Shown: positions 54,549 through 60,723 of the stretch, one piece after another
Layout: the number at the start of each line of letters is the position of its first letter
How positions within the stretch are numbered: the stretch's first letter is position 1
Assembly (NCBI RefSeq): GCF_013410345.1
Contig: NZ_JACCFJ010000001.1
Span: 3,943,001 to 4,007,000, forward strand
DNA length: 64,000 nucleotides
Direction of reading: 5' to 3'
From: Saccharopolyspora hordei
GTDB taxonomy: Bacteria > Actinomycetota > Actinomycetes > Mycobacteriales > Pseudonocardiaceae
Translations under genes and position numbers: made by a program
Notes under the pieces: model-generated
What the model was told of the DNA's origin: nothing
Seen by the model: the letters and a program-made list of their open reading frames with translations, nothing else
Databases searched by the model: none

Positions 54549-55694
54549 TCACCCGCGGTCGGCCAGCAGGTCGGTGACCAGCTGGCTGACCTGGTCGGTC
54601 TCGATCAGGAAGCCGTCGTGCCCGTGCGGCGAGGTGATGGTGGCGACCGGACCGGCTCCCGGGATCAGCTCGGCGAGCTGCCGCTGCTGCTCCAGCGGGA
54701 ACAACCGGTCGCTGTCCACCCCGGCGACCCGGGTGCGGGCCGTGACCCGGCGCAGCGCGGCCGCCACCCCGCCCCGGCCGCGACCCACGTCGTGCCCCGA
54801 CATGGCCTGTGCGAGCACCACGTAGCTGGCCGCGTCGAACCGGCGGGCGAGCTTGTCCGCGTGGTGGTCCAGGTAGGACTCGACCGCGTACCTGCCGCCG
54901 TACCAGGGGTGCTCGCCGTCCTGGTGCGCGGTGCCGAACCGCTGCTCCAGCTCGTGCGGGCTCCGGTAGGTGATGTGCGCGATCCGCCGCGCCACCCCCA
55001 GGCCCGCGTGCGGGCCGCGCCCGTCCGGCAGGTCGTGGTAGTGGCCGCCGAGCCAGTCCGGGTCGCTGCGGATCGCCTCGATCTGGGCCGCCGACCAGGC
55101 GATCTGCTCCGCGGAGGACACCGCGCAGCAGCACAGCAGCAGCGCGGCGGAGACCCGCTCCGGGTGTCCCGCCGCCCACTCCAGCGCCCGCATCCCGCCG
55201 AACGAGCCGCCCATCACCGCCGCCCAGCGCCGGATGCCGAGCGCGTCGGCGAGCCGCACCTCCGCCTGCACCGCGTCCCGCACCGTCACCGCTGGGAACC
55301 GCCCGCCCCACGGCCTGCCGTCGGGCGCGGTGCTCGCCGGGCCGGTGCTGCCCTGGCACCCGCCGAGGACGTTCGGGGCGACCACGAACCAGCGGTCGGT
55401 GTCCAGCGCCCGTCCGGGCCCGACGAGCCCGTCCCACCAGCCGGGGCTGGGGTGCCCCTCGTCCGCCGGGCCCGCCACGTGGCTGTCCCCGGTCAGGGCG
55501 TGCAGCACCAGCACGGCGTTGGACGCGTCCGCGTTGAGCTCGCCCCAGGTCTCGTAGGCCAGCTCGACCTGCGGGAGCACACCACCGGCTTCCAGCACCA
55601 GCGGTTCGGGCAGCCGGAACCAGCGCCGGCGACCGGCGGGGTTCCCCTCCCGCCACGCGCCGGTGGCGGGAGGGGAACCGTGCGTCCGGGTCAT
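54549..55694 (-). CDS. metX: Homoserine O-acetyltransferase
   Basis: 381 residues, alpha/beta-hydrolase fold acyltransferase; activates homoserine with acetyl-CoA. Family signatures: ELAYETWGELNADASNAVLVLHALTGDSHV, VVAPNVLGGCQGSTGP, nucleophile AVMGGSFGGMRALEW and the C-terminal His in TSPHGHDGFLIE. It directly follows and overlaps metY by 4 bases (ATGA), so the two methionine-pathway enzymes are made together. Confidence 0.95.
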   Translation of the reverse strand: MTRTHGSPPATGAWREGNPAGRRRWFRLPEPLVLEAGGVLPQVELAYETWGELNADASNAVLVLHALTGDSHVAGPADEGHPSPGWWDGLVGPGRALDTDRWFVVAPNVLGGCQGSTGPASTAPDGRPWGGRFPAVTVRDAVQAEVRLADALGIRRWAAVMGGSFGGMRALEWAAGHPERVSAALLLCCCAVSSAEQIAWSAAQIEAIRSDPDWLGGHYHDLPDGRGPHAGLGVARRIAHITYRSPHELEQRFGTAHQDGEHPWYGGRYAVESYLDHHADKLARRFDAASYVVLAQAMSGHDVGRGRGGVAAALRRVTARTRVAGVDSDRLFPLEQQRQLAELIPGAGPVATITSPHGHDGFLIETDQVSQLVTDLLADRG

Positions 55695-57016
55695 CGCTCC
55701 AGCTCGGCCTTTGCCGCTCGGAAACCGGCTTCGAGGTCGGCCTTGAGGTCCTCCACCGCCTCGATGCCCACCGACAGCCGCACCAGGCCGGGGGTCACGC
55801 CGGCCAGCCGCTGGTCGTGCTCGCTGAGCTGGCTGTGCGTGGTGCTCGCCGGGTGCGCGATGAGGCTGCGCACGTCACCGATGTTGACCAGGTGGCTGAA
55901 CAGCTCCACGCCGTCGACGAACGCCCGCCCGGCGTCGACGCCCCCGCGCAGCTCGAAGGAGACGATCGCACCGGCCCCGCCCGGCAGGTACTTCTGCGCG
56001 AGCCCGTGCCACGGGCTGCTGGGAAGCCCCGCGTAGTGCACGGATTCGACCTCGTCGCGGGTGCTCAGCCACTCGGCGAGCTGCTGGGCGTTGCGCACGT
56101 GCCGCTCGATGCGCAGCGACAGCGTCTCCAGGCCCTGCAGCAGCAGGAAGGCGTTGAACGGCGAGATCGCCGGTCCGATGTCGCGCAGGCCCTGCACCCG
56201 CAGCTTCGCGGCGAACGCGCCGTGGCCCAGGGCCGGCCAGTACTGCAGACCGTGGTAGCTGGGGTCGGGCTCGACGAAGCCCGGGAACCGCTCGCTGTGC
56301 GCGCCGAAGTCGAAGGTCCCGCCGTCCACGACGATCCCGCCGATGGCGGTGCCGTGCCCGCCGAGGTACTTGGTGGCCGAGTGCACCACGATGTCGGCAC
56401 CGTGCTCGATCGGCCGCAGCAGGTACGGGGTCGTCACCGTGTTGTCCACGACCAGCGGCACCCCGACCTCGTGCGCGAGGTCGGCGACGGCCCGCACGTC
56501 GAGCACGTTCGAGCGCGGGTTGCCCAGCGCTTCGCCGAAGAACAGCTTGGTGTTGGGCCGCACGGCCGCCCGCCACTGCTCGAGGTCGTCGGGGTCCTCG
56601 ACGAAGCTGACCTCGATGCCGAGCTTCGGCAGCGTGTGGTGGAACAGGTTGTGCGTGCCGCCGTACAGCGACGAGCTGGACACCACGTGGTCACCGGCCT
56701 GCGCGAGGGTCAGCACGGTGAGCGTCTCGGCGGCCTGCCCGGAGGCCAGGGCCACCGCCGCCACGCCGCCTTCCAGCGCCGCCACCCGGTTCTCCAGCAC
56801 CTCCTGGGTGGGGTTGTTGATCCGGGTGTAGATGTTGCCGGTCTCGCTGAGGTTGAACAGGTTGGCCGCGTGCTCGGTGTCCCGGAAGACGTAGGAGGTG
56901 GTCTGGTAGATCGGCACCGCCCGCGCCCCGGTGGTGGGGTCGGGCACGGCACCGGCGTGCACCTGGAGGGTGTCGAACGACCACGCGGAACGGTCGTTGG
57001 CAGCGTCAGCGCTCAC
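55691..57016 (-). CDS. metY: O-acetylhomoserine sulfhydrylase
   Basis: 441 residues, Cys/Met-metabolism PLP enzyme. It replaces the acetyl group with sulfide to form homocysteine. Signatures: [87 protein letters not shown] with the PLP Lys, and [27 protein letters not shown] 57016 is chosen for the GGAGAGAGA before it. A short leader peptide ending in Cys stands 146 bases upstream. Confidence 0.95.
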
Positions 57017-57161
57017 AGCTTCTCTCTCCTGGAGTGGGTACGGTCGTGCGGTGCGACCACGCGCTCGCACCTGTGGCGGTGTGCCGCAGGTCGCGGGAAC
57101 GTGCGGTCAGACCGCCACGGGGAGGTCACGGCCGCTGCGCTCCGCGCGCGGCAGAGGTGGA
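57017..57161 (-). other. Leader region between the Cys-ending peptide and metY
   Basis: 145 bases with GC-rich stem potential, for instance GCGG-TCTGA-CCGC around 57105-57119 (minus strand). No S-box, SAM-IV or other known methionine riboswitch pattern is seen. Probably the attenuator or spacer downstream of the leader peptide. Confidence 0.4.
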
Positions 57162-57224
57162 TCAACACGCCGAGGCGGTCACACGCACGAGGTCGACGTG
57201 CCGACGGGCAACCAAACGGATCAC
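57162..57224 (-). CDS. Putative cysteine/sulfur-responsive leader peptide upstream of metYX
   Basis: 20 codons from GTG 57224 (or 17 from TTG 57215) to TGA 57162-57164, minus strand, directly upstream of metY in the same direction. The peptide ends ARRHVDLVRVTASAC. The RRHVDL(x)RV core with Cys at the end is the pattern I know from short actinobacterial 'putative leader peptides' placed before sulfur-metabolism genes. A GGAG sits 3 bases before GTG and 12 before TTG. Translation near the Cys codon could couple metYX expression to cysteine supply. The feature type is a tiny ORF, so independent evidence is needed. Confidence 0.7.
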   Translation of the reverse strand: MIRLVARRHVDLVRVTASAC

Positions 57225-57330
57225 GCTCCGCAGCGTAACGACACGCGTGCTCTGCGCAACCCTTCCCATGATTCGGGAACCGCGCGGTCGGCAGGTCGCC
57301 GCGACTGTCCGCAGTGGAGCGCCGGACGGT

Positions 57331-58999: not shown

Positions 59000-59971
59000 T
59001 CACCGCGCCACCGCCAGTGACACCGCGAAGTCGCCCGCGTCGTCGAGCCACCACTGCTGCAGCTCGAAACCGGCGGCGGCGAGCTCGTCGTCGACCCGCG
59101 CCCGCCGGAACTTCGCCGACACCTCGGTGCGGACCTCCTCGCCCTCGGCGAGCTCCGCGGTCAGCGCCAGCCCTGCCAACCGCACCCGCATCGGCCGCTC
59201 GGCGCGCAACCGCATCTCGATCCACTCCTGCTCGGCGTTCCACAGCGCCACGTGCTGGAACGCCTCGGGGACGAAGTCGGCCCCCAGCTCGCGGTTGAGC
59301 ACGCGCAGCACGTTGCGGTTGAACTCCGCGGTCACCCCCAGCGCGTCGTCGTAGGCGCGGACCAGCCGATCCGGGTCCTTCACCAGGTCGGTGCCCAGCA
59401 GCAGCCACTCCCCGGGCCGCAGCGCCGCGCGGACCGAGGCGAAGAAGCCCGCCCGTTCCGCGGGCAGCAGGTTGCCGATGGTGCCGCCGAGGAACGCCAC
59501 CAACCGGTCGGGACCCGCGTCGAGGGCGGCCATCCCGCTGGTGAAGTCGTCGACCACCCCGCGCACCAGCAGCTCCGGGTAGTCCAGTGCGATGGCGTCC
59601 ACCGCCGCGCGCAACGCCGATCCGGAGACGTCCAGCGGCACGAACCGGCGCAGCGTCCCGTGCTTGTGCAACGCGTCGAGCAGCAACCGGGTCTTCTCCG
59701 ACGACCCCGAGCCGAGCTCCACCAGGGTGGCCGCCCCGGTGGTCTCGGCGACGTCCATCGCGTGGCGCTGCAGGACCTGCTGCTCGGCCCGGGTCTGGTA
59801 GTACTCCGGCAAGGTGGTGATCCGCTCGAACAGCTCGCTGCCGGTCGCGTCGTAGAACCACTTGGGCGACAACCACTTCGGCCGCTCGGTCAGCCCCGCG
59901 CGGGCGTCGGCGCGCAGCTCGCGAGCCGCGTCCTCGTCGGTGAACCGCACGATCAGTTCCGGTTCGCTCAT
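59000..59971 (-). CDS. egtD: L-histidine N-alpha-methyltransferase
   Basis: 323 residues. It methylates histidine to hercynine with three SAM, the first step of ergothioneine synthesis. RPKWLSPKWFYDATGSELFERITTLPEYYQTRAE is the family beginning; the SAM site is LVELGSGSSEKTRLLLDAL, with the conserved FLGGTIGNLLP and EFNRNVLRVLNRELGADF. ATG 59971 overlaps the egtC stop by one base. Fourth and last gene of the cluster. Confidence 0.96.
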   Translation of the reverse strand: MSEPELIVRFTDEDAARELRADARAGLTERPKWLSPKWFYDATGSELFERITTLPEYYQTRAEQQVLQRHAMDVAETTGAATLVELGSGSSEKTRLLLDALHKHGTLRRFVPLDVSGSALRAAVDAIALDYPELLVRGVVDDFTSGMAALDAGPDRLVAFLGGTIGNLLPAERAGFFASVRAALRPGEWLLLGTDLVKDPDRLVRAYDDALGVTAEFNRNVLRVLNRELGADFVPEAFQHVALWNAEQEWIEMRLRAERPMRVRLAGLALTAELAEGEEVRTEVSAKFRRARVDDELAAAGFELQQWWLDDAGDFAVSLAVAR

Positions 59972-60723
59972 CACTCCCCCCTCTCGGCCAACGGCCGCAC
60001 CTGGACGTCGTGGACGGACGCCACGACCACGCTCCGGTCTGGCACGGCGCGCCATCCCTCCCGCGCGCCGAACGGTTCGGACGCCACCGTCACCGCGGCG
60101 GGCTCCTGGCGCACCCACAACGAGTGCGTCCACGTGGTGGCCACCAGCCGTGCGCCGTCGCTGTAGAGCAGGTTCAGCCGCGATCCCGGGGCGGCGTCGG
60201 CCACCTCGCCCACCAGCTCCGGCACCGCCACCTCCGGGTCGGCCCCGGCCAGCAGCCGCTGCCGCAGCAGCGCCCACAGCAGCGCCGAGTCGGTCACCGC
60301 CTCCAGGGACAGCAGGTCGACCACGTCCAACCGGGCGGCCGGCTTGGCCACCGAGTCCGGCCAGCCGGCGACCCGCCCGTTGTGGCTGAACAGCCGGGTG
60401 CCGTCGGTGAACGGCGCGCACGCCTCGGCCACCACCGGCATGCCGACCGTCGCCGAGCGCACCGCGGCGACCACCGCACCGCTGTGCACCTCACGTGCGA
60501 CGTCGCGGAAGGAGGTGTCGGTCCACATCGGAACGGCCGCCCGGTACCGGGCCGTGGTGCCGTCCGCGCGGTGCCAGCCGACGCCGAACCCGTCGGCGTT
60601 GACGGTGCCGCCGCCGCGCATGTCGGTGGGCGCCCACGTCTGCTCCAGCAGCGCGTGGTCGGGTTCCAGCAGCAGGTCGGCGAGCGCGACCTCCGGGCCC
60701 AGGTACCCCAGGTGTCGGCACAT
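59971..60723 (-). CDS. egtC: Gamma-glutamyl-hercynylcysteine sulfoxide amidohydrolase
   Basis: 250 residues, class II glutamine amidotransferase fold. The N-terminal Cys nucleophile (MCRHLGYLGP) follows Met removal. GTVNADGFGVGWH, SGAVVAAVRSAT and LFSHNGRVAGWPD are the family blocks. It removes the gamma-glutamyl group from the EgtB product. Overlaps egtD by one base; 3 bases separate it from egtB. Confidence 0.95.
   Translation of the reverse strand: MCRHLGYLGPEVALADLLLEPDHALLEQTWAPTDMRGGGTVNADGFGVGWHRADGTTARYRAAVPMWTDTSFRDVAREVHSGAVVAAVRSATVGMPVVAEACAPFTDGTRLFSHNGRVAGWPDSVAKPAARLDVVDLLSLEAVTDSALLWALLRQRLLAGADPEVAVPELVGEVADAAPGSRLNLLYSDGARLVATTWTHSLWVRQEPAAVTVASEPFGAREGWRAVPDRSVVVASVHDVQVRPLAERGE

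Follow-up and report, generated by a model that had tools for sequence, protein, structure and literature searches.

A short leader peptide with a conserved UGU codon precedes metYX in Saccharopolyspora hordei and may sense the cysteine supply

Main finding

We propose that the UGU codon at the end of a short leader peptide before metYX in Saccharopolyspora hordei is read as a sensor of the cysteine supply, and that a ribosome stalled there would license metYX. This is the best explanation we have and a likely one. It draws on comparison among related loci, which shows a conserved open reading frame (ORF), a promoter that fits leaderless transcription, a core conserved at the amino-acid level, selection on the Cys codon and an association with sulfur genes. 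The leader is very probably real and is a new metY-linked member of the already annotated family NF042934, whose function is putative. The fixed position (register) of the cysteine and the rule that it is written UGU, as they appear in the leaders compared, are the new part; no publication on the UGU rule or the peptide core was found in the literature searched (Canestrari 2020 lies outside it), which does not prove that they are unpublished. If the explanation holds, metYX, which fixes sulfide, would belong to a cysteine-read regulon and not stand under SAM-IV control, and the UGU rule with its fixed register would provide a simple, testable code for single-codon amino-acid sensing by very short leaders.

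The leader ORF and its start

We analysed a window of 64,000 nucleotides of the S. hordei genome (contig NZ_JACCFJ010000001.1, positions 3,943,001 to 4,007,000). The original prediction placed a tiny minus-strand ORF before metY, and the frame is present where it was claimed, with 20 codons that end in a Cys codon followed by TGA (V(M)IRLVARRHVDLVRVTASAC-stop, minus strand 57224-57162, from GTG at 57224 to TGT TGA at 57162; Table 1). The earlier observation of a leader ORF before metYX is correct. Its length had been left open at 17-20 residues; 20 codons are favoured by the TACGCT box before GTG 57224. The ORF does lie directly before metY, at a distance of 145 nt instead of the 146 given.

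Table 1. Features of the metYX leader region (window coordinates)
Feature	Position	Strand	Basis
-35-like hexamer TTGCGC, 16 nt before the -10	57254..57259	-	sequence
-10-like box TACGCT, 7 nt before the leader start codon	57232..57237	-	sequence; TANNNT positions in relatives
Leader ORF, 20 codons + TGA, probably leaderless	57162..57224	-	sequence; NF042934 profile; promoter spacing
TGT Cys codon (codon 20), presumed sensor, 9 residues after the conserved Asp	57165..57167	-	codon comparisons
145-nt spacer, C > G (skew 0.16), without intrinsic terminator	57017..57161	-	composition; terminator scan; folding
metY Shine-Dalgarno AGGAG	57026..57030	-	sequence
metY, start GTG 57016	55691..57016	-	NF005872 match
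metX, start overlapping the metY stop	54549..55694	-	NF047917 match; ORF list

The RRHVDL-RV core and terminal Cys had been likened to annotated "putative leader peptides", and the likeness stands up to scoring: against the NCBIfam profile of that name, NF042934, the peptide reached 30.6 bits (cut-off 27, E 1.8e-7), with a match that covers profile positions 2-19 (of 19) and runs in the peptide from residue 3 to its terminal Cys. In the whole-genome search with this profile the metY leader scored 27.8 bits (E 2.0e-5), and the cut-off was passed in none of 14 control genomes. The peptide missed the cut-off of NF042936 (Ms4527A family Cys-rich leader), with 26.4 bits against the 45 required.

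The identities of the downstream genes were likewise borne out. metY matches NF005872 (bifunctional O-acetylhomoserine/O-acetylserine sulfhydrylase) at 804.9 bits vs a cut-off of 703, and metX matches NF047917 (MetX) at 545.7 bits vs 475. The closest named metY is that of Saccharopolyspora hirsuta (97% identity), and the next three also come from other Saccharopolyspora. The surroundings of metYX form a small sulfur neighbourhood, since the minus strand also carries the ergothioneine genes egtD (TIGR03438) and egtC (TIGR03442) close by (window 59003-60723).

Signals upstream of the start codon were compared across relatives. Of 25 unique metY leaders, 13 have a TANNNT box whose first base is at -13 relative to the start codon and 3 have it at -14; TTG begins at -35 in 6. 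The start codon lies 10 codons upstream of the conserved Asp in 22 and 11 codons upstream of it in the other 3. Across the family, 30 of 121 leaders with a candidate start carry TANNNT at -13, and any other offset from -40 to +5 is occupied in 6 at most. A generic sigma-70 scan of the leader region called no promoter. Because the spacing of the -10 box before GTG peaks in the leader family, the metY leader mRNA, by this comparison alone, is probably leaderless and its leader 20 codons long.

Conservation before metY

Eighty named metY loci were screened for the leader, first with a strict pattern and then with a relaxed one. The strict pattern found it at 20 loci and the relaxed pattern added L044; the leader-bearing loci are named Saccharopolyspora, Lentzea, Streptomyces and others. 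All 21 fall among the 28 loci with at least 74% metY identity (L023-L048, L055 and L056), which by their names we take to be mostly Pseudonocardiaceae and Streptomycetaceae, and the leader is absent at the other 7 of these 28. At the 52 distant loci (70% identity or less) the strict pattern found no leader, and 12 of them (12 of the 80 overall) carry a SAM-IV element. Leader and SAM-IV never occurred together at one of the 80 loci, the 12 SAM-IV loci having been screened by the strict pattern alone.

Within the genus, metY was found at E<=1e-180 in 11 of 22 genomes (this one counted), and 9 of the 11 have an RRHVD leader before it. A further locus, L113, reached through metY orthology and a looser pattern, has a diverged leader seen by pattern only, with neither Arg residue and with TGC, TGT and TGC at +7, +9 and +11 from the Asp position. 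The original prediction had named loss of the frame in close relatives as counter-evidence, and the frame is mostly retained, in 10 of the 11 same-genus genomes with one of these diverged; the core is lost in the remaining one (L112, genome G020). What remains before metY in L112 is a similar promoter and an open frame that includes a Cys codon.

No Rfam family scored at or above its gathering threshold anywhere in the window. Known methionine and SAM riboswitches are thus not seen in it, which agrees with the earlier remark that no classical methionine riboswitch stands upstream of metY. Elsewhere this genome has one SAM-IV element, before a gene for a SufS-like cysteine desulfurase.

The leader family in this genome and across the class

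A profile search of the S. hordei genome gave 22 matches at E<=10, 7 of them over the NF042934 cut-off. Fifteen were kept by eye as leaders and 7 (L016-L022) were judged non-leaders, so the genome holds about 15 leaders of this type. Four precede clear sulfur genes (metY, nitrite/sulfite reductase, cysteine dioxygenase and the TauE sulfite exporter). The genes after the others encode a DUF4395 protein, an NMT1-type binding protein, an FMN reductase, a winged-helix regulator, an MFS transporter, an amino-acid permease, an ABC permease, a dicarboxylate-type symporter and two luciferase-type monooxygenases; most of these could plausibly have a sulfur role, and several are enzymes or transporters that might serve sulfur uptake. 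In relatives, leaders precede genes for APS kinase, rhodanese, serine acetyltransferase and SBP56. These contexts, here and in relatives, support the claim that leaders of this family stand before sulfur genes. At E<=0.05 the family was found in 40 of 41 genomes (this one counted). Sampling 296 genomes of the class gave it in at least 199 at E<=0.001, and sampling 55 from other classes of the phylum gave it in none at E<=1e-4.

Several individual loci deserve mention. Cys leaders at L012, L163, L184 and L203 precede a gene for a winged-helix regulator (PF00486 in L012, the others assigned by sequence clustering), which would place a transcription factor itself under cysteine-read control. Four pairs of leaders face opposite ways at distances of about 0.2 to 0.9 kb (L002/L014, L182/L221, L121/L190 and L119/L204), and shared divergent control regions therefore exist. 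At L011 and L191 a Cys leader precedes a perhaps secreted protein of unknown family, the gene after L011 having no Pfam match at 1e-6. For the ORF that follows L005, the match to an amino-acid permease is limited to the permease's second half, which makes the start of the ORF uncertain; the gene is perhaps truncated or its start misplaced.

The cysteine codon is mostly UGU

Codon use was determined in 123 leaders, comprising 15 from this genome and 108 fetched from relatives among the matches listed; own-genome rows and, by our count, 34 same-genus near-duplicates were left out, chosen before codons were read. All 123 have a Cys nine residues after the conserved Asp (Asp+9), written TGT in 105 and TGC in 18. 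The other Cys codons of the same leaders comprise 58 TGC and 7 TGT (7/65). In the downstream genes, whose starts were picked by a script that also defines this background, the count is 165 TGC and 6 TGT (6/171), and in window stretches, picked for high third-base GC and thus slightly biased against TGT, it is 125 TGC and 10 TGT (10/135); the UGU share in ordinary genes is 3.5-7.4%. All 25 unique metY leaders have TGT. The share of G or C at the third base of Asp+9 is 0.15 vs an expected 0.96; the lowest values among other leader positions are those of Asp itself (0.62 vs 0.92) and of position -5 (0.67 vs 0.93), none of them close to the value at the Cys.

The same codon prevails in a second, class-wide set made up of the best 30 loci, with TGT at +9 in 30 of 30; many of these are polycysteine leaders of one genus, and L244 repeats locus L114 of the first set. 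Their other Cys codons are 61 TGC and 35 TGT, the TGT mostly within polycysteine runs.

Every one of the 18 TGC leaders precedes a nitrite/sulfite reductase gene in a genome of the window's own family (L001, L124-L126, L128-L130, L136, L137, L140, L142-L146, L216, L218 and L219). In that family such leaders have TGC at Asp+9 in 18 of 18 cases, and TGT is found in the set's 6 nitrite/sulfite-reductase leaders that come from other families. Because of these 18, UGU is not always needed. The rule holds across most of 26 downstream gene clusters, in genomes that are related and hence not independent. By these comparisons the Cys codon is under strong synonymous selection, which fits a codon-reading sensor. 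UGC pairs directly with the GCA anticodon of the single tRNA-Cys, whereas UGU depends on wobble, and any slower reading of UGU would be due to this wobble decoding. Codon choice in leaders can raise sensitivity, according to theory set out in PMC1183508 for amino acids that have multiple isoacceptors.

Retention of a third base may also be a sign of RNA structure, in which case the U would be retained for pairing and not for decoding. We consider this very improbable and rejected it: in the 105 leaders with UGU, the predicted pairing probability of the third base is 0.52 vs a mean of 0.69 at leader third positions, and changing U to C shifts the folding energy much as at control sites (-0.63 vs -0.74 kcal/mol), neither value resembling that of a paired site. 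Read-through near the Cys codon, another suggestion of the original prediction, found no support. The -1 frame, inspected by eye in the window and in L104, looked unconserved, and a frame shift or read-past at this codon was rejected on that ground.

Selection on the core seems to act on the peptide

Counting from the conserved Asp as position 0, Arg(-4) is invariant in the 123 leaders, yet it is encoded by five codons (CGC, CGT, AGG, CGA and CGG). Arg(+3), present in 121 of 123, uses four Arg codons, and the Asp codon is GAC in 76 and GAT in 47. Since codons vary at invariant residues, it is the peptide rather than the RNA that seems to be kept at this Arg/Asp core. The leaders were found by peptide profile or pattern, which inflates amino-acid conservation and leaves synonymous choice unaffected.

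How the leader could control metYX

In the mechanism that we favour, the metYX mRNA would begin at GTG 57224 with the leaderless 20-codon leader, and a ribosome would start on this leader immediately. The codon that does the sensing would be UGU, the last of the leader, which is probably decoded by wobble. Under a shortage of Cys-tRNA, the ribosome would wait at UGU with the conserved RRHVDLxRV peptide inside the exit tunnel, and this nascent peptide may prolong the wait; the waiting ribosome would cover the start of the spacer, and metYX would be made. When cysteine is plentiful, the ribosome would finish at UGA and depart, and the bare C-rich spacer would shut off metYX, perhaps through Rho-dependent termination like that at tnaC of E. 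coli. Stalling, the direction of control and the part played by Rho are what we infer from the comparisons. This explanation is weighed down by the single Cys of the metY leader, vs the runs in tested mycobacterial cases, by the absence of the leader at 7 of 28 close metY orthologues and the loss of its core in one same-genus genome, and by third-base GC below expectation at leader positions besides the Cys.

The leader might instead be a by-product of leaderless transcription, or an aid to basal translation, and sense no cysteine at all. A function that is still putative and a gap (145 nt here) that varies between species would suit such an origin, but the fixed register and the selected UGU, shared by many types of operon and present in 30 of 30 top matches of the class-wide set, speak against it; we consider it unlikely.

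Three ways in which a ribosome on the leader could act on metYX were compared. The first is Rho. The C-G skew of spacers was 0.21 for leaders of 41 genomes (n=110) vs 0.00 for upstream regions of this genome (n=69; P 2.5e-16); the spacer of one own leader, L013, has the opposite skew, -0.17. At -60 to -18 it was 0.21 (n=100), with own leaders at 0.17 (n=12) vs -0.01 in controls (n=81; P 0.002 for own leaders). Among metY orthologues, leaving out 7 of the 80 loci without a usable start, the skew was 0.31 with a leader (20 loci), 0.17 with SAM-IV (12) and 0.13 with neither (41). The leader loci differed from those with neither (P 0.006) and were not separated from SAM-IV loci (P 0.21), so the C-skew may merely mark transcribed 5' ends. 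The C-rich spacers thus fit Rho loading weakly, because some controls may be untranscribed and the difference from SAM-IV loci is not significant.

The second is attenuation of the classical kind, by an intrinsic terminator in the spacer, which we judge highly improbable. Several Saccharopolyspora metY loci have GC-rich hairpins in their spacers, but the terminator scan found no terminator in the window spacer, its single match overlapping the promoter and the leader start, and spacers range from 38 to 239 nt among the metY loci listed. The stretch from the leader stop to metY folds only weakly better than its shuffles (z -1.78), and leader and spacer together fold like theirs (z -0.21). An intrinsic-terminator attenuator was rejected, no GC hairpin with a T run having been found in the metY spacer.

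The third is translation attenuation, in which the leader end or spacer start would pair with the metY Shine-Dalgarno (SD) sequence and a stalled ribosome would free it. M. smegmatis cys leaders are cited as cases of translation attenuation (PMC13236596). In the predicted minimum-energy fold of the window spacer, CUCU and CUCC pair with the SD region, and at some loci masking the leader end raises predicted SD accessibility, from 0.00 to 0.28 at L024/L107 and from 0.00 to 0.56 at L002. Over 140 entries (some loci twice), however, masking moved accessibility from 0.302 to 0.320 (P 0.54), shuffling the leader end left it unchanged (P 0.99), and in the window it moved the wrong way, from 0.47 to 0.35. 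General masking of the SD by the leader end was therefore rejected for want of an overall effect, though L107 and L002 look like it. Pairing between leader end and SD was no better than with swapped partners (112 loci, P 0.82) or than for mid-spacer pieces of the same locus (-12.8 vs -13.4 kcal/mol, 85 loci), and locus-specific pairing was rejected as well. An anti-SD word lies within 30 nt downstream of the stop in 27% of leaders vs 10% of 69 control upstream stretches, but same-letter shuffles give 25% (0.27 vs 0.25), as expected from C-rich sequence. Control at the SD is on these counts doubtful.

Comparison with known systems

The metY leader scores above the curated cut-off of NF042934 (cis_reg_atten), and no tested trait separates it from that family, whose name is annotation only. 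E. coli TnaC, a 24-residue leader with a rut site after its stop codon, has critical residues Trp12, Asp16 and Ile19 that lie 12, 8 and 5 residues before Pro24 (PMC8429421). When the Cys codon of our leaders occupies the A site, their Arg(-4), Asp(0) and Arg(+3) would lie at the same distances before the P-site residue. Unlike them, TnaC senses free Trp at its stop codon, and only the Asp residue is the same; we claim no homology, and the spacing may be a coincidence.

If it is not, the whole family could be a register-locked sensor, a tentative idea that we put forward as possible and no stronger. One wobble-read UGU, always nine residues after the invariant Asp, would be read while Arg, Asp and Arg lie 12, 8 and 5 residues back in the exit tunnel, as the critical TnaC residues do, and the peptide would make the ribosome stall strongly at what is otherwise just one slow Cys codon. 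One cysteine signal would then govern as many as a dozen operons in a genome, or more, with no protein regulator involved; mycobacterial polycysteine runs would have been added around this UGU, and the nitrite/sulfite-reductase leaders of the window's own family, with UGC, would respond at a changed threshold.

The cysS uORFC-8-2 motif of Rhodobacterales also has a Cys-codon leader and presumed stalling, but with tandem Cys codons, UGC dominant and an intrinsic terminator (PMC8632094). The cys leaders of Seliverstov 2005 (PMC1262725) are actinobacterial, stand before sulfur genes and have no conserved terminator in the account given there, and Rho was proposed for the mycobacterial ones; they are described with runs of Cys codons. 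The passages of that paper on methionine operons report no conserved RNA regulatory structure before them.

At the polycysteine leaderless sORFs of mycobacteria (PMC9031893 and PMC9094748, citing Canestrari 2020), according to a review, the cysteine supply controls downstream translation (PMC9031893). Theirs are contiguous Cys codons, whereas the metY leader has a single TGT and falls below the NF042936 cut-off. Both have a terminal Cys codon and the RRxVDLxRV core, the promoter spacing of the metY leader would fit a leaderless start like theirs, and the polycysteine matches in our sets, which we take to be mycobacterial, likewise carry UGU at Asp+9.
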